This document shows, one piece after another, positions 20,780 through 59,492 of a stretch of DNA of 64,000 bases (position 1 is its first letter; every line of letters starts with the position of its first letter). Source of the DNA: Roseobacter sp. SK209-2-6 (lineage in GTDB: Bacteria > Pseudomonadota > Alphaproteobacteria > Rhodobacterales > Rhodobacteraceae); contig NZ_AAYC01000002.1 in assembly GCF_000169455.1 (NCBI RefSeq), positions 62,001 through 126,000 of the forward strand, given 5' to 3'. The notes under the pieces were generated by a model. That model worked only from the letters and a program-made list of their open reading frames with translations, ran no database searches and was not told the origin of the DNA. Position numbers and translations under genes: made by a program.

Positions 20780-20836
20780 CGGCGCCAAGGAAAATGAAGC
20801 CCCCAGAAGGGGCGACTACAAGACAGGAGATATGCA

Positions 20837-21832: not shown

Positions 21833-21855
21833 TTTCGGGTCTAGCTGGTGCAGTA

Positions 21856-21887
21856 AACGGTCGCTCCGAAAGGGGTGGCCGTTTTTT
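21856..21887 (+). terminator. Rho-independent terminator of dmdA-acuI
   Basis: A 12-bp stem beginning AACGGTC and ending GGCCGTT, with several G-U pairs and a GAAA tetraloop, is followed by a run of T. It begins 23 bases after the acuI stop. Confidence 0.85.
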
Positions 21888-22138
21888 GTGTCGCAAAACA
21901 CATAGTTGTTTGGCGATACAAAAATTTAATTCATGATTTAAAAAATCATTTGAAATCAAGGAAATATGCGGTGCTCTTGTTGGATTTGTTTTGCGGCGCT
22001 TGCAATTGCAAAAGCGACATATGTCGCTTTTGGTTCTCATTTTATGACGATTTTGATCCAATTCAGGTCTTTTCTGAGAGTCCCGGTTTGCCATTCCTCC
22101 CGCATGAGCTTGACACCTGTGTCTAACGGAGAGGAAAT
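21888..22138 (+). promoter_or_regulatory. AT-rich regulatory region with palindromes before the BCCT gene
   Basis: This 250-base stretch is much richer in A+T than its surroundings and has three symmetrical elements: ATGATTT/AAATCAT around AAA (21933-21949), the 12-bp palindrome TTGCAATTGCAA (22000-22011), and a perfect 22-bp palindrome with half-site AAAAGCGACAT (22010-22031). The last is about 110 bases before the carrier's ATG. They are good operator candidates; which regulator binds is unknown. Confidence 0.5.
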
Positions 22139-23746
22139 ATGTCAGATAAAACGCAGGCCGGCGCCGAAGCCGGCCAAAACACCGAGTATGAACCAGGCCA
22201 GGACAACGTCCAATTCATGGGCCTGGATGTACATAATCCGGTCTTTGCCGTCTCGGCATTCACCATCATCGCCTTTGTTTTCTTTTCGCTGGTCTTCCGC
22301 GAGCAAGCTGCCGAGTTTTTTGGCTGGCTCCGTCCAGCGCTAACCAGTCAGTTCGACTGGGTCTTCATGATCGCCTGCAACATCTTTGTTCTGTTCTCGC
22401 TGTTTCTGGTGGTCTCCCCTTATGGGTCGATCCGTCTGGGCGGCGACAATGCACGTCCCGATTACAGCTATGCAGGCTGGTTCTCGATGCTCTTTGCCGC
22501 AGGCATGGGCATTGGTCTTGTCTTCTGGGGTGTCGCCGAGCCGATTTCGCACTACGGCTCTTCCATTGGCGGAACCGCAGTAGGCGAGAATGGTATCCGC
22601 ACCGACTGGGCGCCTCTGGGTGCCGCTGCGGGTGATGCGCTTGCCTCCAAAGATCTTGCGATGGCGGCAACGATCTTCCACTGGGGGCTGCACCCCTGGG
22701 CGATCTATGCGGTTGTAGCGCTGGCACTGGCCTTCTTCAGCTTCAACCACGGTCTGCCGCTGACCATGCGTTCGGTTTTCTATCCGATCTTTGGCAAGGC
22801 AACCTGGGGCCCTCTGGGTCACATCATCGATGTTCTGGCCGTCTTTGCCACCATCTTTGGTCTGGCAACCTCGCTTGGTCTGGGTGCAACCCAGGCGCTG
22901 GCCGGTCTGAACTATCTGTTTGATGTGCCGGTCACCGATGGCATGAAAGTGGCTCTGATCATCATTATCACGATCTTTGCGCTGGTTTCGGTTGTTGCTG
23001 GTCTCGACAAAGGTGTGAAGCGCCTGTCCGAAGCCAACATGATCCTGGCCGCAGCCCTCTTGGTTTTGGTCATCATCGTAGGCCCAACCCTGGCGATCTT
23101 CACCGGCTTCTTCACCAATCTGGTGGACTACGTCATCTACCTTCCTGAACTCAGCAACTGGGTCGGCCGTGAAGACACCAACTTCATGCAGGGCTGGACC
23201 ACCTTCTACTGGGCTTGGTGGATCTCCTGGTCGCCTTTTGTCGGCATGTTCATCGCGCGCATTTCCCGTGGCCGTACCATCCGCGAATTCGTGATCTGCG
23301 TTCTGTTGATCCCAACCGTGGTTGGTGCTCTGTGGATGAGCGTCTTTGGTGGTGCAGCACTGGATATGCTGGGCGGCGAAAGCGGTCAGGCACTGAAGGA
23401 TGCGGCGCTTGAGCTGAAAATGTTCAAGATGTTCGAAAGCTTCCCAATGACCGGCATCCTGTCCTTTGTTGGCATCATCCTGGTGGTGGTCTTCTTTGTC
23501 ACCTCCTCGGACTCTGGCTCGCTGGTGATTGACACCATCACCGCAGGCGGCAAGACCGATGCCCCAACCGCACAGCGTGTGTTCTGGTGTATCCTGGAAG
23601 GTGCCATTGCGATCGTGCTCCTGCTTGGTGGTGGCCTTGGCGCGCTGCAGGCGGCCGCGATTGCAACGGGCTTCCCCTTTGCCATCGTGCTGGTTCTGAT
23701 GTGTCTGTCGATCTTTATCGGTCTGGTGCAGTGGCGCCGCCGCTGA
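22139..23746 (+). CDS. BCCT-family betaine/DMSP transporter
   Basis: A 535-residue inner-membrane carrier of the betaine-choline-carnitine family, with about 12 helices. The family mark GMGIGLVFWGVAEP is at about residues 120-134, and aromatic residues that form the quaternary-ammonium site are in MQGWTTFYWAWWISWSPFVGMF. It probably takes up DMSP, glycine betaine or choline. Position after dmdA-acuI makes DMSP (DddT-like) the first guess, but its own terminator-bounded unit and promoter region mean that co-regulation is not shown. The C-terminus is short, without the long regulatory tail of BetP. Confidence 0.92.
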   Translation: MSDKTQAGAEAGQNTEYEPGQDNVQFMGLDVHNPVFAVSAFTIIAFVFFSLVFREQAAEFFGWLRPALTSQFDWVFMIACNIFVLFSLFLVVSPYGSIRLGGDNARPDYSYAGWFSMLFAAGMGIGLVFWGVAEPISHYGSSIGGTAVGENGIRTDWAPLGAAAGDALASKDLAMAATIFHWGLHPWAIYAVVALALAFFSFNHGLPLTMRSVFYPIFGKATWGPLGHIIDVLAVFATIFGLATSLGLGATQALAGLNYLFDVPVTDGMKVALIIIITIFALVSVVAGLDKGVKRLSEANMILAAALLVLVIIVGPTLAIFTGFFTNLVDYVIYLPELSNWVGREDTNFMQGWTTFYWAWWISWSPFVGMFIARISRGRTIREFVICVLLIPTVVGALWMSVFGGAALDMLGGESGQALKDAALELKMFKMFESFPMTGILSFVGIILVVVFFVTSSDSGSLVIDTITAGGKTDAPTAQRVFWCILEGAIAIVLLLGGGLGALQAAAIATGFPFAIVLVLMCLSIFIGLVQWRRR

Positions 23747-44819: not shown

Positions 44820-47237
44820 TTAGCCCCGCATGCGAGCGCCGTCGGCATCAAAGAGCGGCTCAGTTATCAGCCGTGCCTTGTGCATCTTGCCGAGGATCTC
44901 GATTTCGACCTCCAGGCCTTCGGCTGCGCGCTCTGTGGGGACAAAGCCCTGGGCGATGGATTTCTGCGCATAGTGGCTGTAGCCGCCGGAGGTGCAGAAA
45001 CCAACGACCTCACCGTCCAGCCAGATCGGCTCATAGGCGACTACATCGGCATCATCCGCATCGACCTCAAAGGCGCTAAGCCGTCGGGCAGGGCCCGCGT
45101 CGCGCTCGGCTTCGGCTGCCGAACGTCCAATGAAATCAACCTCTTTCTTAAAAGAGATGAAGCGGTCCAGCCCGGTTTCCGCCGCGGTGTAGTCGGGAGA
45201 GAATTCAGAGAGCCAGGAGCCAAAGAATTTGTCCAAGCGCAGCGACATCATCGCCCGCATGCCGAAGGGCTTCATTCCATGCACCTGACCAGCGGACCAG
45301 AGTACCTCCCAGAGCGCGCGTTGCGATGCCAGATCACAGTAGATCTCATACCCCAGATCGCCGGTGTAGCTGACCCGCTGCACGATGCAGTCGGCCATGC
45401 CCACGGTCAGGCGGCGCACATCCATGAAGCGCATGTCCGAGATGTCTTGCCTTGTGCAGGCTTGCAGCACCTCGCGTGCCTTGGGGCCAGCGATCTGGAA
45501 ACCGTTGCGGGTGTCGGAGATGTTTTCAAGACTGACACCGTCATCGAGGTTCTGCAGGAACCAGCGCATGTGGTAGGCCTGAGAGCCGTAGGAGGCGGTA
45601 AGCTGGAACTCTTCTTCGCTGAGGCAGGAGATGGTGAAATCACCGATGAGGCGGCCCTTGGGCGACAGCATTGGCGTCAGCGACAGGCGGCCCGGTTTCG
45701 GCACACGTCCCGCCATGATGCGGTCGAGCCAGGCGCGGGCACCCGCACCCTTGACCAAATATTTGCCAAAGTTGTGGACCTCGTTGATTCCAACCGCTTC
45801 GCGCACTGCTTTGACCTCGCGCGCGGTGGCGTCAAAGGCGTTGGAGCGGCGGAAGGAGGGGGTCTCGTAGCGTGGCTCGCCCTCGGCGGCGAAGTAGTTC
45901 GGGACCTCCATGCCGTATTGCGCGCCCCAGACGGCACCCATGCCATCAAAGATGTCATACATCGGTGTGGTTCGGAACGGGCGGGCTGCAGGCAGCTCCT
46001 CGTTCGGGTAGGCGATGGAGAAGCGTTTCTGATAGTTTTCAATGACTTTGGGCCGGGTGTAGCCCGGTGTAATCCAATCGCCGAAGCGGGCGCAGTCCAT
46101 CGCAAAAGTGTCGCGCTCGCACTCACCCTCGATCATCCACTGGGCCAGCATCAAGCCGACGCCGCCGCCCTGGCTAAAGCCGGCCATGACCGCGCAGGCG
46201 GACCAGTAGTTGCGCATGCCAGGGACCGGACCGACCAGCGGGTTGCCGTCTGGGGCAAAGGTGAAGGGGCCGTGGATCACCGATTTGACCCCTGCGGCCT
46301 CCAGCGCTGGGAAGCGTTTGTAGGCGAAGTTGATCGAGTCTTCGATCTTGTCGAAATCGTCCTGCAGCAGCTCGTGTCCAAAGTCCCAGGGGGTGCCGTC
46401 CACCGCCCAGGGTTTGCAGGGCTGTTCGTAAAAGCCGATGCAGAGGCCGCGGCCTTCCTGACGCAGGTAGCTTTCCCCGGCCGGGTCCATCACATGCGGG
46501 TGCTCGCCGCCGCCGTCGATGATTTCGGCGATCATCGGCACCTCATCGGTGACGATATACTGGTGCTCCATCGGGTGTAGCGGGAAATAGACCCCGGCCA
46601 TGGCACCAACCTCGCGCGCCCATAGGCCGCCTGCGTTGACGATATGTTCAGCGTGGATGGTGCCTTTTTCCGTCACTACATCCCAGGTGCCGTCAGGGCG
46701 CTGGTTGGTCTCGATCACCTTGCAGTGGGTCTCGATCGTGGCGCCGCCCATGCGCGCAGCTTTGGCATAGGCGTGGGTGGTGCCTGAGGGATCCAGGTGG
46801 CCGTCCAGTGGGTCGTATAGCCCGCCGACGATGCCGTCGATATTGGTGACGGGGGCGATCTTCTTGATTTCCTCAGGCGAGACGATCTCTGTCTCCAGCC
46901 CCATGAAGCGGTGCTTGGCGCGCTCGGCCTTCAGCATATCAAAGCGTTCCTGGGTTTCCGCCAGGGTGACACCGCCGACGTGATGGAGGCCGCAGGACAT
47001 GCCGGTGATCTCTTCCAGCTCTTTATAGAGCTTGATGGTGTAGCCCTGAAGTGCGGCCATATTGGTATCGCCATTGAGCGTATGAAAGCCGCCCGCCGCA
47101 TGCCAGGTGGAGCCGGATGTAAGCTCTGAGCGTTCGATCAGCATGACATCGGACCAGCCGAGCTTGGTCAGATGGTAAAGAACTGAGCAGCCGACGACGC
47201 CGCCGCCGATCACTGCCACACGGGTGGTGGTTTTCAT
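44820..47237 (-). CDS. Dimethylglycine-dehydrogenase-like FAD/GcvT fusion protein
   Basis: An 805-residue flavoprotein with an N-terminal DAO-type FAD domain (GGGVVG loop at 11-16) and a C-terminal folate-binding GcvT domain (from about 430). H46 in SGSTWHAAGG matches the histidine that holds FAD covalently in mammalian dimethylglycine dehydrogenase. Such enzymes demethylate dimethylglycine, sarcosine or related N-methyl amines and pass formaldehyde to tetrahydrofolate. GGGAGG before ATG 47237 sets the start; the longer frame to 47384 is not supported. A related enzyme is encoded 440 bases upstream on the same strand. Which N-methyl compound is used cannot be told. Confidence 0.9.
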   Translation of the reverse strand: MKTTTRVAVIGGGVVGCSVLYHLTKLGWSDVMLIERSELTSGSTWHAAGGFHTLNGDTNMAALQGYTIKLYKELEEITGMSCGLHHVGGVTLAETQERFDMLKAERAKHRFMGLETEIVSPEEIKKIAPVTNIDGIVGGLYDPLDGHLDPSGTTHAYAKAARMGGATIETHCKVIETNQRPDGTWDVVTEKGTIHAEHIVNAGGLWAREVGAMAGVYFPLHPMEHQYIVTDEVPMIAEIIDGGGEHPHVMDPAGESYLRQEGRGLCIGFYEQPCKPWAVDGTPWDFGHELLQDDFDKIEDSINFAYKRFPALEAAGVKSVIHGPFTFAPDGNPLVGPVPGMRNYWSACAVMAGFSQGGGVGLMLAQWMIEGECERDTFAMDCARFGDWITPGYTRPKVIENYQKRFSIAYPNEELPAARPFRTTPMYDIFDGMGAVWGAQYGMEVPNYFAAEGEPRYETPSFRRSNAFDATAREVKAVREAVGINEVHNFGKYLVKGAGARAWLDRIMAGRVPKPGRLSLTPMLSPKGRLIGDFTISCLSEEEFQLTASYGSQAYHMRWFLQNLDDGVSLENISDTRNGFQIAGPKAREVLQACTRQDISDMRFMDVRRLTVGMADCIVQRVSYTGDLGYEIYCDLASQRALWEVLWSAGQVHGMKPFGMRAMMSLRLDKFFGSWLSEFSPDYTAAETGLDRFISFKKEVDFIGRSAAEAERDAGPARRLSAFEVDADDADVVAYEPIWLDGEVVGFCTSGGYSHYAQKSIAQGFVPTERAAEGLEVEIEILGKMHKARLITEPLFDADGARMRG

Positions 47238-47676
47238 TTGGGCCTCCCAGATTTGCTGTTTCCTGCATTCTGTACAGAAGTGAACAGTAGTCCAGCAAAA
47301 AAGCGACCCCACTGGTCGGTTTTCTACCGCAGCGAGGCGGATTTGGCGACCAGACGCGCTGTATATGGGCTTGGGGAGCCACATAGGGGGGCGTGACAGC
47401 AGCGTAACTTGCCTAGGCCTTTGTCGTGATCAGGATTTAATCCTCAGCGATCCATGAGGGTTTGGTCGGTCCCAAGCATATAGCGTGAAATGGCCGACAA
47501 TTCAGGAGTTTCGTCACCCGACAGCTATCTTTGAAGGCCGCTTTTTCTGGTTGATCAATCCCGGTGCGGATCAAATGTGCATTTGTCGTAACCAACCCCA
47601 TTTTGCGACCCTGTTTGGGATAGGGGTGCCCCGCCAAATGGTACGGGGCAACCAAAGACAATCTGCGTGCGGTTGC
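47238..47676. other. Spacer between the two flavoprotein genes, with palindrome
   Basis: About 440 bases without a gene. A perfect 12-bp palindrome TTCTGTACAGAA lies at 47268-47279, 31 bases before the downstream gene's ATG, inside a wider CTGTT...AACAG symmetry; it is a good operator candidate. The gap suggests that the two flavoprotein genes have separate promoters. Confidence 0.5.
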
Positions 47677-50070
47677 TTAACTCTTCATTCGGCTGCCAGC
47701 GGGGTCGAACAGCGGCCCAATGGTCACGGTGGCATCCAGCAGGTTTCGCGCGATGTCGATCTGCACGCGAGTGCCATCTTTGACGACGCCTTTCACATGG
47801 CCCAAAGCAACCGGTTTGCCGACACGGTAACCAAAGCCGCAGGAACTGGTTTGACCAATGATCTTCCCATCCAGGTAGATCGGTTCATGGCCCAAAGGCA
47901 CCGCAGTTTCGTCATCCAGTTTGAGGGAGATCACATGCGGCATCGCGCCCTTTGCCCGGCGCTCTGCCAGGGCTTCGGCACCAATGAAGCCGCCCGTCTT
48001 ACGAGTGGCAAAATCCAGACCGGCCTCAATCGGTGAGACATCGCTGTCCAGCTCATGCCCCATGGCGCAGAAGCCTTTTTCGATCCGCATTGAGGTCTGC
48101 GCAAAAAGTCCCGCCGGTTTGGCCCCTGCCGTCGTGAGAGCGGCATAGACCGTGGCGGCGTTTTCTGCCCGCATGGTGATTTCCCAACCCGCTTCGCCTA
48201 CATAGGACATACGTGCAGCTCGCACATGTTTGCCCGCGATATGGGCGGTGCCGGTTTTGAAATAGCCAAGCTCGTTTAGCTCCGGTGCGCCACATTCGGT
48301 GACGATCCGGGCTGCTTCTGGACCCATGAGGCCCAGGGTGGCGTAGTCCTCCGTACTGTCCGTCAGGGTGACTTTGTAGCCCTCTGCCAGATTGCGGAAC
48401 CAGGCGAGGTCACGCTTGATCGCATTGGTTCCCACGAACAGGCGATAGTGATCCTCTGCGATGCGCTGCGCGGTGATATCGCTTTCAAAGGTGCCGCGTT
48501 GGTTCAGCACAGATGTGTAGATAACCGACCCTGGAGCGCGACCCAAGTAGCCGGAACAACAGTGCAGAAGGAACGCTTCGGCATCTGGTCCTTGCACCTC
48601 AATCTTGCCGAAGGAAGAGGCGTCGAAAATTGCCGCAGCCTCATGGGCGGCCATGACTTCGGCGCGAACATTCTCAAACCAGTCCGGCCGACCGAAGGTC
48701 ATGGCAGGCTCAGCTGTCTTGCCAAAGTACAGAGATCTCTCCCAACCATAGAACTGCCCCATATGCGCTCCTACCGCACGATATTCGGTATCAAGCGGCA
48801 GGGCGCACAGGTCCCGGGCAGTTGAGAGCTGTTTGCCCGGAAAGGCGATGTCGTAATGGGTCCCGAGGATTTCGGGCGCGCGGGCCATCAAGTGATCAAT
48901 ACTGTCAAAAACCGGGGCAAACCGCTTGGCGTCCGCTTCGGTCAGATCATAGGCCGTATGCCCATGCACGATGCAATGCGCCAAATTCATGCCCGCACCA
49001 CCACCGGAGGCAATTCCGACCGAGTTCATGCCGCAGCCCAGGAACAACCCCTTGGTTTCGGCGGTTTCGCCCAGCATGAATGTGCCGTCAGGTGTGAAGC
49101 TTTCCGGCCCGTTCAGCAGCATTTTGACTTCGGCAGTTTCCAGCGCGGGCAGGCGATGAAGTGCATTCATCATCATGGGTTCGAAATGATCCCAATCTTC
49201 GGGCAACAGGCCAAATTCAAAGCTTTCGTCCAGCACGCCCGGAGCAATCGGTTTCCCCATGAGTTCAAAACACCCCACCAGAAGCCCGCCGGAATCGTCG
49301 CGGATATAGAGGTGGTTGTCATGGTCGGACAAGGTTGGCGTATTGCCGATGATACCGTCAATCGGCTTGGTCAGAAGATAGAAATGCTCGCAGGCCAGCG
49401 CAGGCACCTGCGCGCCCGCCATGGCGCCCACTTCGCGGGACCACAGGCCGGTGCACAAAGCAATTGCATCGCACATGATTGTGCCCTGCGTGGTTTCTAC
49501 CCCTTTGACACGGCCATTTTCGGTCAGAATGCCGGTCACTCCGGTATCTTCAAAGATCTTGGCCCCTAGCGGCTTAGCCGCTTTGACCAGGGCAGCGCAG
49601 ACATCTGAGGGCGACACCCGGCCATCATCCGGTGACCAGACCGCCCCCAGTACGTCTTCGGCATTCATCAGCGGCCAGCGTTCCTTGGCCTCCTCCGCCG
49701 AAACGGACATCGCATCGATCCCATAGGCATGGGCCAGGGCTTCCTGCCGCTTCACATGGATCAGGCGATCGGGGTTTGTGGCAATCGACAGGGAGCCTTT
49801 CTGGATCCAGCCCACATTCTGTCCGGTTTCTTCTTCCAGCTGGGAATAAAGATCCACCGAATATTGGATCATGCGGGTCAGGTTTTGTGAATGGCGCAGG
49901 GCCCGCACCTGGGCCGCCGAATGCCAGGTGGTGCCGCTGGTCAGCTTGTTTCGCTCCAGCAGGACCGCATCCGAAACGCCCATCTTGGCAAGGTGATAGA
50001 GCGTCGAGCAGCCCATGATGCCACCGCCGATCACAACGACGGAGGCGTGGGAGGGAAGGGAATGGACCAT
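47677..50070 (-). CDS. Second dimethylglycine/sarcosine-dehydrogenase-like FAD/GcvT protein
   Basis: A 797-residue paralogue of the enzyme at 44820-47237: N-terminal FAD domain (GGGIMG at 15-20), H50 in SGTTWHSAA at the covalent-FAD position, and a C-terminal GcvT-like folate domain with the YVGEAGWEITM segment. The FAD half is of the dimethylglycine dehydrogenase type; the substrate is an N-methylated amine. It is divergent from an RpiR-type regulator, 155 bases away, with an inverted-repeat operator candidate between. The two flavoproteins are not near-identical copies, so they probably act on different methylation states or substrates. Confidence 0.9.
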   Translation of the reverse strand: MVHSLPSHASVVVIGGGIMGCSTLYHLAKMGVSDAVLLERNKLTSGTTWHSAAQVRALRHSQNLTRMIQYSVDLYSQLEEETGQNVGWIQKGSLSIATNPDRLIHVKRQEALAHAYGIDAMSVSAEEAKERWPLMNAEDVLGAVWSPDDGRVSPSDVCAALVKAAKPLGAKIFEDTGVTGILTENGRVKGVETTQGTIMCDAIALCTGLWSREVGAMAGAQVPALACEHFYLLTKPIDGIIGNTPTLSDHDNHLYIRDDSGGLLVGCFELMGKPIAPGVLDESFEFGLLPEDWDHFEPMMMNALHRLPALETAEVKMLLNGPESFTPDGTFMLGETAETKGLFLGCGMNSVGIASGGGAGMNLAHCIVHGHTAYDLTEADAKRFAPVFDSIDHLMARAPEILGTHYDIAFPGKQLSTARDLCALPLDTEYRAVGAHMGQFYGWERSLYFGKTAEPAMTFGRPDWFENVRAEVMAAHEAAAIFDASSFGKIEVQGPDAEAFLLHCCSGYLGRAPGSVIYTSVLNQRGTFESDITAQRIAEDHYRLFVGTNAIKRDLAWFRNLAEGYKVTLTDSTEDYATLGLMGPEAARIVTECGAPELNELGYFKTGTAHIAGKHVRAARMSYVGEAGWEITMRAENAATVYAALTTAGAKPAGLFAQTSMRIEKGFCAMGHELDSDVSPIEAGLDFATRKTGGFIGAEALAERRAKGAMPHVISLKLDDETAVPLGHEPIYLDGKIIGQTSSCGFGYRVGKPVALGHVKGVVKDGTRVQIDIARNLLDATVTIGPLFDPAGSRMKS

Positions 50071-51112: not shown

Positions 51113-51210
51113 TTATCTGGTTACGCAAAGAAAAACCTGGTCTATGCCTTTTCCACGAAAAAAAACGATCGCCACAGGTGGCCGCAATGGGAGGAAAAGC
51201 ATGGAAAAGC

Positions 51211-51688
51211 ATGAAGGTTTCCAACGTCTTTGTGGCTGCGGCCTTGGCCGCATTCAAGGGAATTCGCGGCGGGGCGAGCGCGGACCAGCAGTTCATCACA
51301 ATCGGCACTGGTTGTGTGACCGGGGTCTACTACCCTACAGGCGGTGCGATTTGCCGTCTGGTTAACAAGGGCCGCAAGGAGCATGGCATCCGATGCTCCG
51401 TCGAACCAATCTATGGTTCGGTCTACAACACCCGCACCATCCCTGAGGGAGAGCTTGACCTTGATGTCATGCAGTCGGACGTGCAGGCCGCTGCAGTGTC
51501 CGGCACTGGGAAATTCATCCGAGGATGGCGCCTATACCCTATCGCGCGCGCTTTTCTCGTTTCCTCCCGCGCCTATGCAGGCATCAACCCTATCGCCTCA
51601 TTTCGCGGGAAAGAAGAACAGTATCGCCAACCTGGGCTCAGGCACAGGCGTGTCGGCTGAAGCCCTGCTGGACGGCTATGCGGTTTAA
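51211..51688 (+). pseudogene. TAXI-type TRAP solute-binding protein, frameshifted
   Basis: The beginning is a normal TAXI-family receptor: a signal peptide (MKVSNVFVAAALAAFKG) and the conserved FITIGTGCVTGVYYPTGGAICRLVNKG, then HGIRCSVEPIYGSVYN. Homology continues in other frames (AGINPIASFRGK, then SIANLGSGTGVSAEALLDGY) and stops after about 160 codons, half the usual length. At least one frameshift and a deletion have broken it. It lies directly behind the RpiR gene. Confidence 0.8.
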
Positions 51689-51754
51689 AGAGATGAATTC
51701 GCTCTTGCGGGGCTTATATCCTGTCCGCGTCCCCGCATTCCTGTCGCGATTTGG

Positions 51755-51955
51755 GTACAGGCCCTCGTTGGGGCGCTTGTCGCGTTCTATCTGTTTTAGG
51801 CTTGTGCCGATGTGGGCGCGCGTTCCGGCGCGCCGAGCACGATGGATGTCGTGGTTTCGGTTCTGACCGGAGTGATCCTCGACGCAGTGCATGGCGCATT
51901 GGGCAGGATGGCAGTTTGGGCCATCGTTGCTGCAATGATACTGCTCTATGTGGGG
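51755..51955 (+). pseudogene. Remnant of a TRAP transporter fused permease
   Basis: A single frame with one internal TAG reads VQALVGALVAFYLF, stop, then ACADVGARSGAPSTMDVVV and a hydrophobic stretch ending VAAMILLYVG. It resembles the start of the DctQ-DctM fused permeases that accompany TAXI receptors, and its position after the receptor remnant supports this. The rest of the permease is gone. A G9 tract follows. Confidence 0.65.
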
Positions 51956-52158
51956 GGGGGTGCGTTTTGCGGCGCAGCGGCCCGATCTTAAAATGGGCAT
52001 CGAGAGCATGAAGCACCTGCCGCCCGCCCGAGAGATTTTTTCCATGGCTGAGGCGGCTGAGGCGGCTGAGGTGGGGAGTTCGATCAGGGGGCGATTGCCG
52101 GGTGAGACCCAGGAAGGTGCACAGTATTCTGCGCGCTGCGCGCCTTGTTCGCAGGCTT

Positions 52159-52749
52159 TTAACCGTCTTGTGTGTCACCCTTGTAGTAGCCGATCACATC
52201 ATTTTCAGTGGTCGCGCCCAAACCGTTGAGAAGCCTGTTGGAGTAGTTGAAATAGGCGCAGACCTGATTGACCTCCAGGATCTCGCCATCACTGCATCCT
52301 ACGATTTTCAAGGCTTCGAAATCCGATTTGATCAGTTTGCCCACATCAGTCGTCAGCTTGGCCGCATAGCGCAGTAGCGCCAGCTCTTTGCCCTCGAACT
52401 CATCCTCCGGCCGCTGCGCCTTGAGCGCGAGGAATATCCGGTCGCTGCGCGGCTGATCCTGGATCAGGTTGCGGACGTTCATAAAGTGATGGGTCAGCGA
52501 ATAGGTGCAGTCATTGAGGATCGAGGTATAGCTCGCGACTACCTCAAGGAACCAGAAGGGCAGCACGTTGTCCTGTGAATGCAGCACCGAACGATAGAGC
52601 GTCACATGCCCATTCATGGTTTCTGGCCGCAGAGAGTGGACCCGCATCACCGTGTCGACCGTGCCATGCGGCGTACGTGCCTTATCCAAGAGTTCCTTCA
52701 GACGGCCGGTGGCCTCTTCGTCGGGCACCATTTCAATCCATGCGCTCAT
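52159..52749 (-). CDS. AhpD-like peroxidase-related protein with CxxS motif
   Basis: A 196-residue all-helical protein of the carboxymuconolactone-decarboxylase/AhpD superfamily (peroxidase-related branch). At the active site the usual CxxC is CTYS (TSILNDCTYSLTHHFMNV), so one redox cysteine is lost; the following histidine pair stays. It may act as a decarboxylase-like or non-redox member. AGGAG is six bases before ATG 52749 (the second of two tandem ATGs). It is divergent from the NicX/M29-like gene, 150 bases apart, and forms the edge of the putative catabolic cluster. Confidence 0.8.
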   Translation of the reverse strand: MSAWIEMVPDEEATGRLKELLDKARTPHGTVDTVMRVHSLRPETMNGHVTLYRSVLHSQDNVLPFWFLEVVASYTSILNDCTYSLTHHFMNVRNLIQDQPRSDRIFLALKAQRPEDEFEGKELALLRYAAKLTTDVGKLIKSDFEALKIVGCSDGEILEVNQVCAYFNYSNRLLNGLGATTENDVIGYYKGDTQDG

Positions 52750-52898
52750 CATTGTCTCCTGTTCTTTCAGCCCAGCTTAAATCCAAAAGTAGCATTACTG
52801 ACAGTCAAAAAATCAACCCAGGTGAAATTTTTGTGGATCAACCAGCACGACCGACGCTAATGTTGCGGCAAAGCGTTACCTTTGTGGGGAGTATTGTC

Positions 52899-54008
52899 AT
52901 GCAGCAGTCCGATTTGCGTCTTGGCGCTGAGAATCTGCTGATCACCTGTGCTGGTCTGGCAGCAGGGGACCGCTTACTTGTACTTCGGGAAGAACCCGAA
53001 AATACCTATTATGATCAAGGGATTGTTGAGGCGGTACTTGAAACCGCCCACGCGCTGGAGATGAGAGCAGAACTACGCACAGTGCCCTTCGATCCGATGG
53101 GTGGTGCGATTTCTGCGGATCTGGTTGCGGCGATGAAACAGGCTGACCGCACTATCTTTCTGTCCCGTACCGGGGACCAGATTCGCTTTGATGCCTCCAT
53201 GGCGGGTATCCGTCCGATCATGTCCTATGCGCTGGACGCAGAGATGCTGGCCTCGGGCTTTGGGCAGGCCAACTATACAGGGTTTGTCGCACTGAAGGAT
53301 GCGGTCAATGCGCTCTTCGCCGGGGCAAGAGAAATTCGCGTGTCCTGTCCGCTTGGTACTGATTTTTCCGGCCCCGGTGCATGTTACGCCCAGGCGGGGG
53401 CGGCGGATGTCAGCGTCACCCGCTTTCCCATGTCGGTCTTTGCGCCGGTGCCCGCTAGCGGGTTCTCTGGCGTGGTGATGCAGGACGGGTTTCTGGTTGG
53501 CACCGGGTCGAAGTTCTACGATCCCTATGGCTGTGACCTGCAAGAGCTGCTGGCGGTGCATTTTGAAAATTCGCGCCTGACGCATTTCAGCGGTCACGAG
53601 ATGGATGTGCATTGCGCTCAGATGCACTACGAGAAAGTTGGTCAGATGTTCGACCTTGAGCCCCTGACCATGCATTCCTGGCATGCGGGTATCCATCCTG
53701 GTTGTGCCTATACCATGCCCGCCGCCAATAACTTTGAGCGTTGGAGTGGCGGCGCCTTTGGCAATCCGCGCCTGATGCATTTCCACACTTGTGGACATTA
53801 CGCTCCCGGCGAAATCTCATTGAATGTTCTGGATCCGACCATCAGCATCGATGGGGTCGCCGTCTGGAAAGGCGGCGTCTTTAACCCACTTTGTGTTCCC
53901 GGTGGTGCAGAGATCCTTGCTCAATACCCCTCTGTGCAGGCGGTATTCGACGCCCCAGCGCAGGAGGTGGGGCAGGGACCTAATGGCCGCTTGATGGGGG
54001 CCGCCTGA
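52899..54008 (+). CDS. NicX/M29-like metalloenzyme
   Basis: A 369-residue protein resembling the M29-aminopeptidase fold as used by 2,5-dihydroxypyridine dioxygenase NicX. The similarity is in overall layout and in the C-terminal metal-site region: GHEMDVHCAQMHYE, HSWHAGIHPGCAYTMPAANNF, and HFHTCGHYAPGEISLNVLD followed by a final strand ISIDGVAVWKGGVF. Histidines and acids in these segments could bind iron or zinc. GGGGAG precedes ATG 52899; the longer frame from 52575 is not coding. Neighbours (Rieske oxygenase, AhpD-like proteins, ABC uptake) support ring cleavage rather than peptidase action, but this is inference from distant similarity. Confidence 0.68.
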   Translation: MQQSDLRLGAENLLITCAGLAAGDRLLVLREEPENTYYDQGIVEAVLETAHALEMRAELRTVPFDPMGGAISADLVAAMKQADRTIFLSRTGDQIRFDASMAGIRPIMSYALDAEMLASGFGQANYTGFVALKDAVNALFAGAREIRVSCPLGTDFSGPGACYAQAGAADVSVTRFPMSVFAPVPASGFSGVVMQDGFLVGTGSKFYDPYGCDLQELLAVHFENSRLTHFSGHEMDVHCAQMHYEKVGQMFDLEPLTMHSWHAGIHPGCAYTMPAANNFERWSGGAFGNPRLMHFHTCGHYAPGEISLNVLDPTISIDGVAVWKGGVFNPLCVPGGAEILAQYPSVQAVFDAPAQEVGQGPNGRLMGAA

Positions 54009-54077
54009 GGCGGGCCCTTCAGTAGAGGGGCTGTAAGGAATGCCACAGGCCGGTTTCCCGGTCCGTGGCAATCACCG

Positions 54078-55139
54078 TCAAGCCTTCGATAGCTCTTCTT
54101 CTGCTGCGATGGCTTTGGCCACGCGGGATCGGAACCGCATCGCGCCCGCATCGAGCCCAAGGTTGAGGTAGGGCGTCTTGCGCCGTGCCATGCCGGTTTG
54201 CACATATTCCAGCACATCCTTGTCCTCGGTAAAGGCCATGATCGCCCCCTGGAACATGCGTTCGGACAGAGCGGCATCTTCGGCATGCATATTGCGGTGC
54301 TGGAACCAGAAATAGCGCGAGTTTTCCCCATCCACCGGCGTGATGAAATTATAAGAGATATTGACCAGCGCATTGGGTGAGATCGGCTTATCCGGACCGC
54401 CTTCACCCACCGGCGCGTAGACCGACATGTTGATTGCGGTCGAAGGCAATCGGCATTCGTAATGCTGCTTGCGATCACAGTTCGGGCCAAAGGGCAGCAT
54501 GGGTTTGTAATAGGGCGCGGGGGGCTCGTCATAGATCCAGCGCGACACCACAACTCCTGCGTCAAACTCCTCCAAATCCAGGGGGCGGCTGTCGGTTCCG
54601 GCCCCGGCAAAGGAGGTCAGATGCACCCAAGCCACATGGCTCGGATCCAAGAGGTTGTCGGTGATGTAGAGGTAGTGGCAGGCCATCTCCATCGCGCCCT
54701 TGGCGGTCTTGCCCCAGGTCGGATTGTCGAAGTTCGGGATGTCGATGATCTTATCCCGGTCCGCCTTCTCAGGATCCCCCATCCAGAGCCAGAGGAAGCC
54801 CCAGCGATCCTCGGCCGCATAGGAATGGACCGCTGCGCGGCGTGGCGGGTTGTCCAACTGGGTTGGGGCGATCACGCATTCGCCGCTACAGTCAAAGGTT
54901 AGCCCATGATAGCCACAGACCACATGGTCGCCTTCGATCGTGCCGCGCGACAGCGGCAGTTTGCGATGGGGACAGGCATCTTCCAGGGCAATCGCCATTC
55001 CCTTGGTGTCGCGGTAGATCACGATCTCTTCGCCCAGCATGCGCACCGCGCTTAATTCGCGGCCAAAATCCTCGCTGCGTCCGGCCACATACCAGCAATC
55101 GCGTATGTAGCCGTTGGCACCTATCAGGTCTGGTCGCAT
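54078..55139 (-). CDS. Rieske-type oxygenase, VanA-like
   Basis: A 353-residue oxygenase subunit of the vanillate O-demethylase (VanA) group. The [2Fe-2S] Rieske ligands are in CPHRKLPLSRG and CGYHGLTFD; the non-heme iron site is probably in DNLLDPSHVAWVH with a distal acid. Such enzymes hydroxylate rings or demethylate methoxy or N-methyl groups, using electrons from a separate reductase. No VanB-type reductase gene is present in the window. AGGAG precedes the ATG, and the gene follows directly on the small CMD gene upstream (stop-to-start 3 bases), so the two are co-translated. Confidence 0.9.
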   Translation of the reverse strand: MRPDLIGANGYIRDCWYVAGRSEDFGRELSAVRMLGEEIVIYRDTKGMAIALEDACPHRKLPLSRGTIEGDHVVCGYHGLTFDCSGECVIAPTQLDNPPRRAAVHSYAAEDRWGFLWLWMGDPEKADRDKIIDIPNFDNPTWGKTAKGAMEMACHYLYITDNLLDPSHVAWVHLTSFAGAGTDSRPLDLEEFDAGVVVSRWIYDEPPAPYYKPMLPFGPNCDRKQHYECRLPSTAINMSVYAPVGEGGPDKPISPNALVNISYNFITPVDGENSRYFWFQHRNMHAEDAALSERMFQGAIMAFTEDKDVLEYVQTGMARRKTPYLNLGLDAGAMRFRSRVAKAIAAEEELSKA

Positions 55140-55142
55140 CGC

Positions 55143-55484
55143 TCACTCCTGCCCAGAAAAGACATCAAAGGCCTTTAGCGCCTTGGCGCTATAGGCATAG
55201 GAGGGGCCGCCTCCCATATAGGTGGCCATGGCCAGCGCCTCACAGAGTTCTTCGCGGGTGATCCCAAGCCGAACCAGCGCGCGCACATGAAAGCCGATGC
55301 AGCTGTCGCAACGGGTCGCAACTGCGATCCCCAGCGCCATGATTTCTTTGGTCTTTTCACTGAGTGCCCCATTGGTTTTGGCGGCTTTGCCCATAATGCC
55401 AAAGCCTTTGACCGTCTCGGGCACTTCCTTAGAAAAACTTCCGATATCGGCCTCAATCTCGGCCATGAAGGTGTTCCAATCCAT
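55143..55484 (-). CDS. AhpD/carboxymuconolactone-decarboxylase-like protein
   Basis: A 113-residue helical protein with the intact redox motif CDSCIGFH (C59, C62, H66), as in AhpD alkylhydroperoxidases. The AhpD-type CxxC usually reduces peroxides with thioredoxin or lipoamide; small single-domain members beside Rieske oxygenases may protect them or act as decarboxylases. AAGGAG before the ATG is strong. It lies between the permease gene and the Rieske gene on the same strand. Confidence 0.88.
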   Translation of the reverse strand: MDWNTFMAEIEADIGSFSKEVPETVKGFGIMGKAAKTNGALSEKTKEIMALGIAVATRCDSCIGFHVRALVRLGITREELCEALAMATYMGGGPSYAYSAKALKAFDVFSGQE

Positions 55485-55499
55485 GTCTTTTCTCCTTTT

Positions 55500-56261
55500 T
55501 TAGCCGCGCTCGTCCGAACCCATCCGCCGTTCCAGCCAGCGCACCCCTGCGCTGATGATCAGCACCAGGATCAGATATTCGAGGATCAGCAATGAATAGA
55601 TTTCCAGCGGGCGGTATTCTGTCACCACCAGCTCATTGGCGCGTCGCGTCAGTTCCTGCATGCCGATCACACTGGCAAAGGCGCTCATCTTGACGATGTA
55701 GATAAATTGGTTGGCCAGGGGTGGCAGAATGCGCCGGATCGCCTGTGGCAGGATCACGTAGCGCATGGTTTGCAGGTAGTTCAGGCCGATGGTCTGCGCC
55801 GCTTCGGTCTGTCCTTTGGCAATCGATTGGATGCCTGCGCGATAAATCTCGGCGGTAAAGGCGCTATCCGAGAGGGCCAGTGTAATGATCGCGCCCCAGA
55901 AGGGATCAATCGGGACGTTCATTCCCATCTCGCGGAAGATGATCGGCAAGCCGTAGAAGACCCAGAACAGCATGGGCAGCAAGGGAATAGAGCGGACCAG
56001 CTCGACATAGACCCGGTTCACCATGCGCCACCAGCGGCTTTTGGCCAGGCCCGGCAAGGCCACGATCAGCCCCAGCACAATCGAGATGACCGCCGCGATC
56101 ACCGAAATCAGGATGGTATCGCCCATGCCTGAGATCAGGAATTTCACATTGACCCAGCCCGAGGCCGTCATCGGGTTGATAACATACCAGCCCCAGGTGG
56201 AAGAGCTGGAACAGCCGGTCAGCACCAGAAACGGCAGCAGTAGAACAAGAAACCTCTTCAT
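55500..56261 (-). CDS. Polar amino-acid-type ABC transporter permease
   Basis: A 253-residue inner-membrane permease of the HisMQ type: TM helices and the conserved EAA loop (AAQTIGLNYLQTMRYVILPQAIRRILPPLANQ) that touches the ATPase. The N-terminus looks like a lipoprotein signal (LLLPFLVLTGCSSSS), which is odd for a permease. ATG 56261 has GAAGGGG upstream. Only one permease gene is present, so a homodimer is likely. It follows the ATPase gene in one operon with the AhpD-like and Rieske genes. Confidence 0.9.
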   Translation of the reverse strand: MKRFLVLLLPFLVLTGCSSSSTWGWYVINPMTASGWVNVKFLISGMGDTILISVIAAVISIVLGLIVALPGLAKSRWWRMVNRVYVELVRSIPLLPMLFWVFYGLPIIFREMGMNVPIDPFWGAIITLALSDSAFTAEIYRAGIQSIAKGQTEAAQTIGLNYLQTMRYVILPQAIRRILPPLANQFIYIVKMSAFASVIGMQELTRRANELVVTEYRPLEIYSLLILEYLILVLIISAGVRWLERRMGSDERG

Positions 56262-56275
56262 CGTTGCGCCCCTTC

Positions 56276-57016
56276 TCAATGCTCTAGGATTTGGCTGAGG
56301 AATTGCTGGCAGCGCGGGGATCTGGGCGAGCCAAAGAACTCATCCGGGGTGCCCTGTTCGACGATCTCACCCGCATCCATGAAGATCATGTTGTCCGCAA
56401 CCTTGCGGGCAAAGCCCATCTCATGGGTCACAACAACCATTGTCATGCCTTCCTGGGCCAGTTCGACCATCACTTCCAGCACCTCCGAGATCATCTCGGG
56501 GTCCAGGGCAGAGGTTGGCTCATCGAACAACAGAACCTTGGGTTCCATGCAGAGCGAACGGGCAATTGCCACGCGCTGCTGCTGCCCGCCGGACAGCTGT
56601 CCGGGGCGCTTCATCGCCTGATCCGGGATGTGCACCCGCTTCAAGTAATGCATCGCCTTGGCCTCGGCTTCCGATTTGGAGAGGCCACGCGCCTTCATCG
56701 GCCCCAGCGTCAGGTTCTCCAGCACAGTCAGATGCGGAAACAGGTTAAATTGCTGAAACACCATGCCGACATCCGAGCGAATCGCCGCCACGGAATTCGG
56801 ATCATTGGTCAGTTCGATCCCATCGACCCGAATGGTTCCCTTTTGATGTTCCTCCAGCCGGTTGATGCAGCGCACGACCGTTGATTTGCCAGAGCCCGAG
56901 GGGCCGCAGATCACGACCTTTTCACCGGTCTGGATGGATAAGTTGATGTCTTTGAGGACATGGAACGTGCCATACCATTTGTTGACATCCACTAGTTCGA
57001 TTGCCGTTTCGCTCAC
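56276..57016 (-). CDS. Polar amino-acid-type ABC transporter ATPase
   Basis: A 246-residue ATP-binding subunit of the GlnQ/HisP type. Walker A is GPSGSGKST, the signature [10 protein letters not shown], Walker [13 protein letters not shown], and the His switch VTHEMGF. The start is a GTG at 57016 with GGAG about nine bases before. It heads the minus-strand operon ATPase - permease - AhpD-like - Rieske and is divergent from its binding-protein gene, 142 bases away. Confidence 0.95.
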
Positions 57017-57045
57017 TGGCTAGGCTCCCCCCCCTGGCGTGAATT

Positions 57046-57060
57046 TTTCTTCTGAAGAAA
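57046..57060. promoter_or_regulatory. Odd palindrome between the divergent ABC genes
   Basis: TTTCTTC and GAAGAAA flank a central T, in a T-rich stretch. It lies 30 bases upstream of the ATPase start and about 100 upstream of the binding-protein ATG. A regulator site is possible; the XRE-cupin protein next door is the obvious candidate. Confidence 0.4.
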
Positions 57061-57158
57061 TTTTTTTCTTGAGGTTAGCGTCGCTCTTGGCGTTAAATCA
57101 AGTATCAAAAATGCTTCAAATCGAAGGCAGTCCAAGAACCACCAACGGGAGAAACACA

Positions 57159-57929
57159 ATGAAACGCGCATTCCAGGTCGTCGCCGCGGCCGCCATCAGC
57201 CTTGCACTTGCCGGCGCTGCCACCGCCCAATCCGCCCTGAACGAGATTCTGGACGGCGGTGTGCTCAAGGTTGGTACCACCGGGGATTGGAACCCGATGA
57301 CCCTGCGCGATCCGGCGACCAACAGCTACAAAGGGTTTGATATCGACATCATGACCGAGCTGGCCAAGGATCTGGGCGTGGAGGTGGAATTCGTGCCTAC
57401 GGATTGGAAAACGCTGGTCAACGGTGTGGTCGCGGGCAAGTATCATATGACCGGCTCCGCCTCGATCTCACCGCCACGCATGAAGGTTGCAGGCTTCTCG
57501 GAGAGCTATATTTCAGTCGAACTCTACCCCTTTACTCTTAAGGCCAATGCGGATCGATTTGACGGCTATGAGTCGATCAACCAGCCGGATGTAAAGGTTG
57601 CAACCACCCTTGGCACGACCTTTGAAAAGCGCGTGCGCGAATGGTTCCCGAATGCCGACATCAAAGTGGTTGAGGCCCCGGCGCGTGGCTTCCAAGAGGT
57701 TCTGGCCGGTCGTGCCGATGTCTTTATCACCTCGAATATCGAGGGCTCCACGCTTGAAGCCAAGTTCCCGGTGGTGCGCGTCAAAGGCACTGGCCCGCGC
57801 TCACCTTCACCAATTGCCATGTTGCTTCCGCAGTCCGATCAGGTCTGGATCAACTATGTGAACAACTGGGTCAAAGTGAAAAAGGCGCAGGGCTTCTTTG
57901 AGAATATCAAGGCGAAATGGGGACTCTGA
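57159..57929 (+). CDS. ABC transporter substrate-binding protein, PheC-like
   Basis: A 256-residue periplasmic protein of the SBP_bac_3 type with a signal peptide (VVAAAAISLALAGAATAQ). The closest pattern is that of cyclohexadienyl-dehydratase-like (PheC) binding proteins: LKVGTTGDWNPMTLRD, YKGFDIDIMTELAKDLGVEVEFV and a conserved RGFQEVLAGRADVFITSNIEG. CGGGAG precedes ATG 57159; the frame from 57039 is longer but not supported. It feeds the divergent ATPase and permease. Ligands in this subgroup are small acids or amines; the specific one here is unknown. Confidence 0.9.
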   Translation: MKRAFQVVAAAAISLALAGAATAQSALNEILDGGVLKVGTTGDWNPMTLRDPATNSYKGFDIDIMTELAKDLGVEVEFVPTDWKTLVNGVVAGKYHMTGSASISPPRMKVAGFSESYISVELYPFTLKANADRFDGYESINQPDVKVATTLGTTFEKRVREWFPNADIKVVEAPARGFQEVLAGRADVFITSNIEGSTLEAKFPVVRVKGTGPRSPSPIAMLLPQSDQVWINYVNNWVKVKKAQGFFENIKAKWGL

Positions 57930-57950
57930 GCCGACCCGCATACTGCACTG

Positions 57951-57978
57951 GCCCGTCCCATATTGGGGCGGGCTTTTC
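57951..57978 (+). terminator. Rho-independent terminator of the binding-protein gene
   Basis: GCCCGTCCC (57951-57959) pairs with GGGGCGGGC (57965-57973), one G-U pair, loop ATATT, then TTTT. It is 22 bases after the stop. Confidence 0.88.
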
Positions 57979-58052
57979 TCAGTTCTCAGGTCAGTTCTTA
58001 GGTGTGTGCACTTAGGCCAGCTCTCAGGCGGATGCGCTCAGACCATTGTGTC

Positions 58053-58652
58053 TCAGGCGACGGGTTTGGCCACCAGCGTGATAAAGCTCACCTTGTCGGT
58101 TTTCAGCTCGACCGCGCCATGGGCGGTACTGGCATCATAGCTCAGACTGTCACCGGGACGCATGTGATAGACCCCTTCGCCACAGCGGTAGATCATCTCA
58201 CCATCGGTGACGTGTACGAATTCGATCCCTTCATGCTGATAGAGCGGGCGGGGCGATAGGGGGCCCTCCAGCGTCACATTGAAAGTCTCGAAATTCACAT
58301 GACCGGATTCGGCCCGTCCGATCAGCTTGTAGATATGACCAAAGCCACTGCCCAGGCGCTGCACCGTCATGCCTTCGCCTGCCGCGACAAAGGACACATC
58401 CGTGCGCTCAACCGTACCGGCAAAGAAATTGATCAGCGGCACGCCTGTTGCCTGTGCCAGCGCTTCCAACGAACTGAGCGAGGCCGAGACCTGCCCCCGT
58501 TCGATCTTGGAAATCATTGCGGGCGAGACCTTGGCCTTGGCCGAGAGCTCCGCCAGGGTCAGCCCCGCCAAAACGCGATGCGCCTTGACAGCAGCGCCGA
58601 TCAGGTGGTCCAGCGGCGGTTTCTCTACTTCGATGGGCAATGAATCTTCCAT
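58053..58652 (-). CDS. XRE-type HTH plus cupin transcriptional regulator
   Basis: A 199-residue regulator: an N-terminal XRE helix-turn-helix (HRVLAGLTLAELSAKAKVSPAMISKIERGQ) and a C-terminal cupin sensor domain (HEGIEFVHVTDGEMIYRCGEGVYHMRPGDSLSYD). This type, like PuuR, often controls uptake and breakdown of amines or amino acids. I chose ATG 58652 (MEDSLPIEV) over a TTG at 58673; ribosome sites are weak for both. It is divergent from the creatininase-family gene by about 80 bases and 120 bases past the binding-protein gene, so it probably governs this cluster. Confidence 0.88.
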   Translation of the reverse strand: MEDSLPIEVEKPPLDHLIGAAVKAHRVLAGLTLAELSAKAKVSPAMISKIERGQVSASLSSLEALAQATGVPLINFFAGTVERTDVSFVAAGEGMTVQRLGSGFGHIYKLIGRAESGHVNFETFNVTLEGPLSPRPLYQHEGIEFVHVTDGEMIYRCGEGVYHMRPGDSLSYDASTAHGAVELKTDKVSFITLVAKPVA

Positions 58653-58730
58653 GGGGATAGCGTACCGTCCCAAATCGAAAAGGGGAAGCGATGCTCAGAT
58701 CAGCGCCCCCGAAAACTGCAAGGAACGCGC

Positions 58731-59492
58731 ATGAAACTTGAACACATGACATGGCAGGAGGTCGATAACCGCATCCGCAAGGGGGCCGCGATTATTTTGC
58801 CTGTTGGTTCAACCGAACAGCATGGACCAATGGGGCGGATTGGTACCGATACGATATGCGCCAAAGCGGTGGCGCTGTTGGCCGCAGAGGCCTGTGATGC
58901 CATTGTCGCGCCGCCGCTGGCCTATACTCCGGCCCCGTTCAACACGGCTTTTCCGGGCACCGTTTCGATGCCGGAGGAGATCTTCCAGGCCCATGCCGGG
59001 GCGATTGTCACGGGCCTGCTGGCGCAGGGGTTTCTGGGCGTGTTTGTCGTCAATGGCCATGGAGCCAATCTCGCGCCCCTGCGGGCCATCGCCAACAGCT
59101 GCAAGCCTGAACAGATGAGGATCCGCAGTTGGTGGGAGCCGGAAGAGGTCAACGGCCTTCGGCGTGATCTTTATGGTGATTGGGAGGGGATGCATGCAAC
59201 CCCATCCGAAGTCGCAATCACCCAGTACCTGTTGGGCGTGCTACCTTCTGGGGATGCAAGCGAGGCGCCCACCAAGCTGACACAGGAGTATATCCAGGAA
59301 CATAGCGGCGACCGTCACGGCCGCCCGGAGGAACATCGGCAAATGTTCCCTGACGGTCGGGTGGGCTCCCATTCTGCTTTGGCCACACCAGAAGATGGGG
59401 AACGCATTCTTGCAGCAGCTTCCCAATCCATCGCACGTGAGTTCCTGGATTTTGAAGAAAGCGCGCGGAGCTGCACATCGCTAAGGGGGTGA
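58731..59492 (+). CDS. Creatininase-family amidohydrolase
   Basis: A 253-residue metal-dependent hydrolase of the creatininase family. Metal and catalytic positions are visible: E29-H31 in STEQHGP, D40, VVNGHGAN and the later GDWEGMHATPSE. Family members open cyclic amides or formamides (creatinine, and formylaminopyrimidine in coenzyme F420 synthesis) and also act in other pathways. Here, between the XRE-cupin regulator and the end of the cluster, it may hydrolyse an amide produced by ring cleavage. The exact reaction is unknown. Confidence 0.88.
   Translation: MKLEHMTWQEVDNRIRKGAAIILPVGSTEQHGPMGRIGTDTICAKAVALLAAEACDAIVAPPLAYTPAPFNTAFPGTVSMPEEIFQAHAGAIVTGLLAQGFLGVFVVNGHGANLAPLRAIANSCKPEQMRIRSWWEPEEVNGLRRDLYGDWEGMHATPSEVAITQYLLGVLPSGDASEAPTKLTQEYIQEHSGDRHGRPEEHRQMFPDGRVGSHSALATPEDGERILAAASQSIAREFLDFEESARSCTSLRG

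Follow-up and report, generated by a model that had tools for sequence, protein, structure and literature searches.

The DNA analyzed here is a 64,000-nt stretch of Roseobacter sp. SK209-2-6 (assembly GCF_000169455.1, contig NZ_AAYC01000002.1, positions 62,001-126,000), hereafter referred to as the window. Nine genes lie in mixed orientation at positions 52159-59492 of the window, and this cassette, with the compound that it may take up and degrade, is the subject of the present analysis. All nine reading frames are open at the coordinates given below, and the proteins were assigned to families by matches to Pfam and NCBIfam models. An original prediction, made from the sequence of this one genome, had named two AhpD-like proteins, a NicX-like protein, a VanA-like Rieske oxygenase, an importer, an XRE-cupin regulator, and a creatininase-family hydrolase. 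The reading frames bear out the whole set, and the family matches bear out every member but the NicX-like protein, whose kinship was traced through profile comparisons. The cassette is built from known enzyme kinds plus one divergent enzyme branch, and its features are as follows.

52159..52752, minus strand: CMDa, TIGR01926 peroxidase-related protein of the CMD/AhpD superfamily, with C82-x-x-S85 in place of CxxC
52899..54008, plus strand: protein assigned to the NicX/M29 superfamily, in a branch without a Pfam model (ATG start at 52899 read from the sequence)
54078..55139, minus strand: VanA-type Rieske oxygenase with intact Rieske and mononuclear iron motifs
55143..55484, minus strand: CMDb, AhpD-like protein with the canonical CxxC...H
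55500..56279, minus strand: amino-acid-type ATP-binding cassette (ABC) permease (BPD_transp_1), the sole permease gene of the cassette
56276..57016, minus strand: amino-acid-type ABC ATPase (ABC_tran)
57068..57102, no strand assigned: candidate operator, a conserved block that contains an imperfect inverted repeat (CTTGAGGTTA ... GTTAAATCAAG) at the ATPase/binding-protein junction, recognized by eye and putative in function
57159..57929, plus strand: solute-binding protein (SBP; SBP_bac_3), with 5kkw as the nearest solved relative
58053..58673, minus strand: XRE-cupin regulator (HTH_3 and Cupin_2)
58731..59492, plus strand: creatininase-family metal hydrolase (PF02633), below the NCBIfam creatininase cut-off

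The NicX-like protein was used to scan GTDB genomes, a search that detects close relatives only, and 11 loci were obtained, all in records named as roseobacters or Rhodobacteraceae. Eight of these 11 loci have all nine genes with order and orientation unchanged; the exceptions are L003, which is truncated at a contig end, L010, which lacks the XRE-cupin and creatininase-family genes, and L011, which lacks the creatininase-family gene and has a fragmented Rieske gene. The genes flanking the cassette vary between genera. Conserved gene order combined with differing flanks means that the cassette is a real accessory unit of the roseobacters and not a chance assembly, so that the expectation of the original prediction that the genes stay together was borne out. 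Among 21 loci picked as window-like (of which L064 and L004, whose contigs agree in length, appear to be one and the same contig), 13 carry the nine genes in order, and L053 holds all nine rearranged. The copy in L011 (9259-12144) has a Rieske gene split into three parts and Arg in place of Cys82 in CMDa, and no creatininase-family gene was found there; it is either decaying or affected by assembly errors.

Of 394 genomes of the family, 49 carry the NicX-like gene, one of them as a 38-bit fragment; among good-quality genomes alone, the figure is 46 of 347. Within the genus of R. denitrificans, 24 of 54 genomes have the gene. In a survey of the class, the NicX-like profile matched 19 of 385 genomes, 9 of them only weakly, which we read as matches to the NicX/M29 superfamily at large. 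A plasmid collection gave matches in 12 of 72,556 records, and a scan of viral contigs for further NicX-like relatives gave none. The distribution is thus patchy, as expected of accessory catabolic genes. Literature searches for the gene set or for homarine genes, in which subscription papers were poorly covered, returned no paper recognized as describing the cluster.

The divergent branch is represented by the NicX-like protein, which matched no Pfam or NCBIfam model. When the 42 relatives that make up its profile (A4) were compared with Pfam, single chance-like matches alone were obtained (best E 0.0017), and the M29 model PF02073 was matched by none of the 42, which sets the branch apart from the M29 aminopeptidases. 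Direct searches of the PDB with phmmer and with the profiles A1 and A4 did not match NicX at the limits used, and the link required an intermediate profile (A5) of distant proteins that were found by A4 and carry the classical H-x-D motif. A4 aligned with A5 at 99.8% probability (hhalign, E 2.4e-29), A5 aligned with NicX (7cn3) at E 9e-33 and with the M29 protein PepS at E 6e-6, and one member of A5 (L113) matched PF02073 at E 1.4e-8. On the strength of the chain from A4 through A5 to 7cn3, together with the match of L113, membership of the NicX/M29 superfamily is well supported, and this kinship is shared with NicX, the 2,5-dihydroxypyridine 5,6-dioxygenase of P. putida. A structure model built from 12 sequences was poor (mean pLDDT 55.8, with residues 249-310 below 50), and Foldseek with this low-confidence model placed NicX at the top (E 3e-8, TM 0.36-0.39).

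Unlike NicX, however, the branch does not keep the iron ligands. These are H265, S302, H318, and D320 according to an excerpt of PMC7910607. In the profile alignments of A4, A5, and 7cn3, the columns of H265 and H318 are gaps and that of D320 is Ser306, while no confident counterpart of S302 could be identified. Since these ligands are not kept, a reaction of the NicX type cannot be assumed; the protein may not be a NicX-type dioxygenase, and the ring opening by this enzyme that the original prediction had put forward is weakened. On the other hand, H261, H293, and H295 are invariant in all 42 aligned relatives and could form an alternative metal site. A check of the metal site, which had been named as decisive for the original prediction, therefore went against the NicX-type iron center and left room for a different one.

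The neighborhoods of NicX-like genes elsewhere were examined in a family survey of 40 loci, some truncated at contig ends and not all independent, in which neighbors were counted within 10 kb. The most frequent neighbors were an ABC ATPase (29 loci, not all necessarily cognate), a Rieske oxygenase (28), an SBP and a permease (26 each), a LysR regulator (22), and CMDa (21), followed by XRE and creatininase-family genes (17 each), a fatty-acid desaturase and a Rieske ferredoxin (10 each), and CMDb (9). Annotated plasmids revealed two further cluster types besides that of the window. On plasmids of Paracoccus seriniphilus and of two Ruegeria, the cluster is composed of genes for a Rieske oxygenase, LysR, the NicX-like protein, CMDa, a two-permease importer, and a SoxBDAG-type oxidase, with a glutathione S-transferase (GST) and purU added in the former and a fatty-acid desaturase, a ferredoxin, and PhyH in the latter two. 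In Alisedimentitalea and Leisingera thetidis, a Rieske-SoxGADB group adjoins NicX-like-CMDa and a GST. The SoxBDAG-type genes were located within clusters designated type B (L043, L048, L051, L054, and L083-L085) and type C (L060, L062, L086, and L088). Eight class-survey loci lie outside the family, some of them on short contigs; among these, CMDa was found in 6, the SBP in 5, the creatininase-family gene in 4, and a Rieske gene in none; a gene resembling 2-oxoglutarate (2OG)-Fe(II) oxygenases was present in 4 of the 8, its PF03171 and PF14226 domains being checked for one. An isopenicillin N synthase (IPNS)-type oxygenase gene was also seen by eye in L052. The recurrent theme is an importer, an oxygenase, CMDa, and the NicX-like protein, of which the oxygenase seems exchangeable.

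The Rieske protein of the window matches PF00355 (E 5e-21) and VanA_C (PF19112; E 2.5e-49), and the motifs CxH...CxxH and D-x2-H-x4-H are present in it and in 33 related rows. Both domains and both metal motifs are common to its solved VanA-type relatives, namely 7qwt, DdmC, and SxtT. In contrast to VanA-type systems, the cluster has no adjacent gene for a VanB-type reductase, and the Rieske protein is paired with the NicX-like protein. No reductase was found among the nine genes, whereas the reductase of a sister-clade Rieske, used as a query, matched seven places in the genome of SK209-2-6, of which two are parts of a single frame. The strongest of these matches have E values of 1.5e-38 and 5.6e-33, with 41% over part and 31% over nearly the full length. 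It is therefore plausible that an unlinked reductase would supply the Rieske oxygenase, in agreement with the original prediction that the reductase is encoded elsewhere. Of the Rieske step itself, the oxygenase has held its place in the conserved unit, but hydroxylation by a Rieske enzyme is not a fixed part of the scheme, considering the loci outside the family described above. In an unrooted tree, the Rieskes of type C group with those linked to reductases and apart from the others (90/100, not starred). Sister Rieskes are 50-51% identical to that of the window, and one of them (51%) is accompanied by genes for a reductase and for formaldehyde detoxification.

Heterotetrameric oxidases of the kind represented by the SoxBDAG sarcosine oxidase and the N-methylglutamate dehydrogenase (Mgd) MgdABCD thus occur in the related clusters. 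The SoxA proteins of these clusters form two clades of their own, each at 100/100, which are distinct from one another as well as from the clade of the L147 and L153 SoxA proteins, whose genes adjoin MgsABC- and/or type III glutamine synthetase (GS-III)-like genes. From the two SoxA clades and the separate branch of the type C Rieskes, the pairing of SoxBDAG with the cluster probably arose more than once, and such repeated recruitment suggests a functional link to the oxidation of N-methyl groups or secondary amines. The idea that the related-cluster SoxBDAG is simply Mgd was considered and set aside as not supported by the SoxA tree, with the caveat that MgsABC/GS-III-like genes occur about 11 kb away from L150, which is the deepest row in the first cluster clade. 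The G617 contig concerned (L134/L150) carries genes for an SBP, a creatininase-family protein, a Rieske protein of 30% identity, an importer, an IPNS-type oxygenase, SoxBDAG, and CMDa. It also carries a type III glutamine synthetase gene (686 bits against a cut-off of 470) and, in addition, three genes of the glutamate-synthase kind, which we take to be those named gmaS and mgsABC; no NicX-like gene was found in the L134/L150 stretches of this contig. In the genome of SK209-2-6, four SoxA-like genes above the family cut-off occur elsewhere and belong to neither cluster clade.

Further information on the substrate comes from the SBP. Its nearest solved relative is 5kkw (E 6e-80), a Pelagibacter protein that we take to be Pu1068. 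Where the arginine-binding ancestor AncCDT-1 has Asp, all 13 SBPs chosen for alignment, including that of the window, have Ser, and so has 5kkw. The window SBP is thus allied to Pu1068 and the cyclohexadienyl dehydratase lineage; unlike that of Pu1068, its gene is clustered with Rieske and NicX-like genes. According to an excerpt of PMC7683729, the ligand of Pu1068 was not known as of 2020. Relatives of the window SBP at E <= 1e-40 were found in 29 of 385 genomes of the class. Three of the genomes are single contigs of 1.2-1.3 Mb, a size like that of SAR11, and in two of them (L121 and L122) the SBP and permease genes lie directly downstream of SoxBDAG, an arrangement that offers a lead to the ligand of 5kkw-type binding proteins. 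In L125, L126, and L127, a GST-like gene recognized by eye adjoins the same type of SBP gene, with no NicX-like gene seen nearby; that of L126 was below all model cut-offs when checked.

The remaining enzymes are two CMD proteins and the creatininase relative. CMDb matches PF02627 (E 2e-20) and has the canonical AhpD motif. CMDa matches TIGR01926 with 91.7 bits (cut-off 81.8), while its Pfam CMD score of 17.4 bits is below the cut-off; the second cysteine is absent in 11 of 12 aligned rows, which have CxxS, and L011 has Arg for Cys. The creatininase relative matches PF02633 (E 1e-47) and aligns throughout with 3no4, as befits the family, to which ArfB and MftE presumably also belong. It nevertheless reaches only 85.5 of the 235 bits needed for TIGR04448, and in alignment with 1q3k it has Ala at the position of E122, which we take to be the ligand Glu of creatininase. 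A creatinine/creatine pathway was set aside because the hydrolase scores below the TIGR04448 cut-off and because it leaves no role for the Rieske and NicX-like proteins; no search was made for creatinase or urease genes.

The analysis shows which genes are present, that they are conserved as a unit, that related clusters include SoxBDAG genes, and that the SBP has Ser in place of Asp. On this basis we tentatively propose, at somewhat less than an even chance, that the cassette imports and oxidatively degrades a betaine-like compound with a carboxylate and an N-methyl group, which may be an N-heterocycle; homarine is one candidate. The ABC importer would take up the compound, and the Rieske oxygenase, with a reductase encoded elsewhere, would add a hydroxyl group to the ring or to an N-methyl group. 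The protein of the NicX/M29 superfamily, as a metalloenzyme, would then open or hydrolyze the oxidized product, and the creatininase-family enzyme would hydrolyze an amide or formamide. For the two CMD proteins, a reactive intermediate may be the substrate, or they may guard against peroxide. A leftover N-methyl amino acid would pass to a SoxBDAG-type oxidase, encoded inside some of the related clusters and elsewhere in the genome of SK209-2-6. In comparison with the original prediction, which ran from import through ring oxidation and ring opening to amide hydrolysis, the conserved unit with its importer and oxygenase stands, NicX-type ring opening does not stand as firmly, and the hint of an N-methylated substrate, beyond the reach of a single genome, has been added. 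A doubtful extension would be that the NicX-like proteins are a new NicX/M29 branch with a metal site re-wired to H261, H293, and H295, that they open a betaine-type N-methyl heterocycle in marine bacteria, and that the ligand of Pu1068 belongs to the same substrate class, judging from the same transporter clade beside SoxBDAG in SAR11-size genomes.

Several observations weigh against this proposal. The window-type cluster itself contains no SoxBDAG gene, in which it differs from the SoxBDAG/MgdABCD systems, and SoxA was found within 10 kb in only 8 of the 40 family-survey loci, one of these being a weak match. The cluster SoxB and SoxA scores are around, and mostly below, the NCBIfam cut-offs, so that sarcosine need not be the substrate. 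In the third genome of SAR11-like size (L123), the SBP and permease genes have no SoxBDAG nearby. The argument from the SBP presupposes that the Asp of AncCDT-1 holds the ammonium group. No Rieske gene was found in the eight loci outside the family, some of them on short contigs, so that the pathway may differ by lineage, and the missing NicX iron ligands count here as well. On a Ruegeria conchae plasmid (L159 6191-9738), CMDb, permease, ATPase, SBP, and creatininase-family genes form a separate module without Rieske or NicX-like genes, about 110 kb from the type B cluster of the same plasmid. Finally, a sister Rieske on a Paracoccus yeei plasmid lies near hutI and a formimidoylglutamate deiminase gene, which points to histidine derivatives.

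This last point leads to a different explanation, in which the Rieske oxygenase would demethylate an N-methylated histidine or a different methylated imidazole, the product then entering the Hut pathway. Another sister Rieske, on a Shinella plasmid, is near hisC and formaldehyde genes, and in Leisingera sp. M658, hut genes are 6-11 kb from the cluster. Nevertheless, the sister Rieskes are only 50-51% identical to that of the window, hut genes are annotated in 1 of 7 plasmid cluster regions and were not searched for elsewhere, and the NicX-like protein is left without a role; we judge this explanation very unlikely. The reading of the original prediction, an N-heterocycle such as a pyridine without an N-methyl group, hydroxylated by the Rieske enzyme, cleaved by the NicX-like protein, and deformylated or deamidated by the creatininase relative, agrees with the superfamily membership and with the VanA-type Rieske. 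GST-type genes in some related clusters would also suit a maleyl-type product, although the GSTs of L083 and L086 matched general GST models below the cut-off. It is unlikely, however, in view of the gap, gap, and Ser306 in the NicX ligand columns, the failure of the direct searches to match NicX, and the failure to find Rieske genes in the eight loci outside the family.

Somewhat less likely still than the reading of the original prediction is the homarine (N-methylpicolinate) pathway or a branch of it, in which 5-hydroxylation, C5-C6 cleavage, and deformylation would give N-methylglutamate, to be converted by Mgd to glutamate. By our reasoning, C5-C6 cleavage after 5-hydroxylation would leave an N-formyl-N-methyl-glutamate skeleton, and the glutamate-synthase-like and GS-III genes on the L134 contig fit this sequence of reactions. 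The homABCDER operon of the homarine pathway study by Ferrer-Gonzalez in 2026 reportedly occurs in SAR11. On the contrary, the smallest of the 19 class genomes with a NicX-like profile match has 2.7 Mb, the SAR11-size genomes G598, G687, and G764 are not among them, and only 24 of 54 Ruegeria-type genomes have the NicX-like gene. In favor of the route, an excerpt of PMC13390433 reports that Mgd is active in homarine catabolism. A cassette for defense against peroxide or electrophiles, with the AhpD-like proteins at its center and the Rieske and NicX-like proteins as detoxifying enzymes, would account for the presence of two CMD/AhpD proteins and for the mean column identity of CMDa (92%), the highest of the three aligned proteins (the other two having 89% and 81%). 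But a dedicated importer in the unit and SoxBDAG in its relatives fit nutrition better, and CMDa lacks the CxxC motif, so that defense is highly improbable.

Being portable and open to test, the gene set could reveal how a nitrogenous osmolyte or alkaloid is degraded in the ocean, assign a role to an enzyme branch that no Pfam model covers, and point to ligands of an orphan SAR11-type binding protein. Should the cassette prove to be part of the published homarine route, its value would lie mainly in being a variant.

As for regulation, most columns of the block at the ATPase/SBP junction (57068-57102) are conserved at >= 80% over 15 chosen loci, among which L065 deviates most; an automated repeat search lists a different repeat at this junction, at 57052-57073. 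The CMDa/NicX-like junction carries a different conserved non-coding block, TGNCAGT...AA. These blocks may serve separate regulation of uptake and catabolism. One short motif common to the three divergent promoters was also sought and was rejected, there being no match in 13 of the 15 loci and different blocks at the two junctions.

Outside the cassette, two tandem FAD/GcvT-type oxidase genes resembling dimethylglycine dehydrogenase (44820-47384 and 47677-50070, minus strand; by eye and by similarity) adjoin it, with an RpiR-like regulator gene, also recognized by eye, beside them. The oxidase at 47677-50070, the only one of the pair compared, had no match beside the cluster in L002-L012. Between these genes and the cassette, 51178-52100 holds a remnant of a TAXI/TRAP-type transporter, in which PF16868 covers only positions 1-74 of 289 and the frames are then broken (by eye). 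Farther away, genes resembling those for dimethylsulfoniopropionate demethylase, an AcuI-type reductase, and a BCCT transporter were recognized, by eye only, at 19691-23746.

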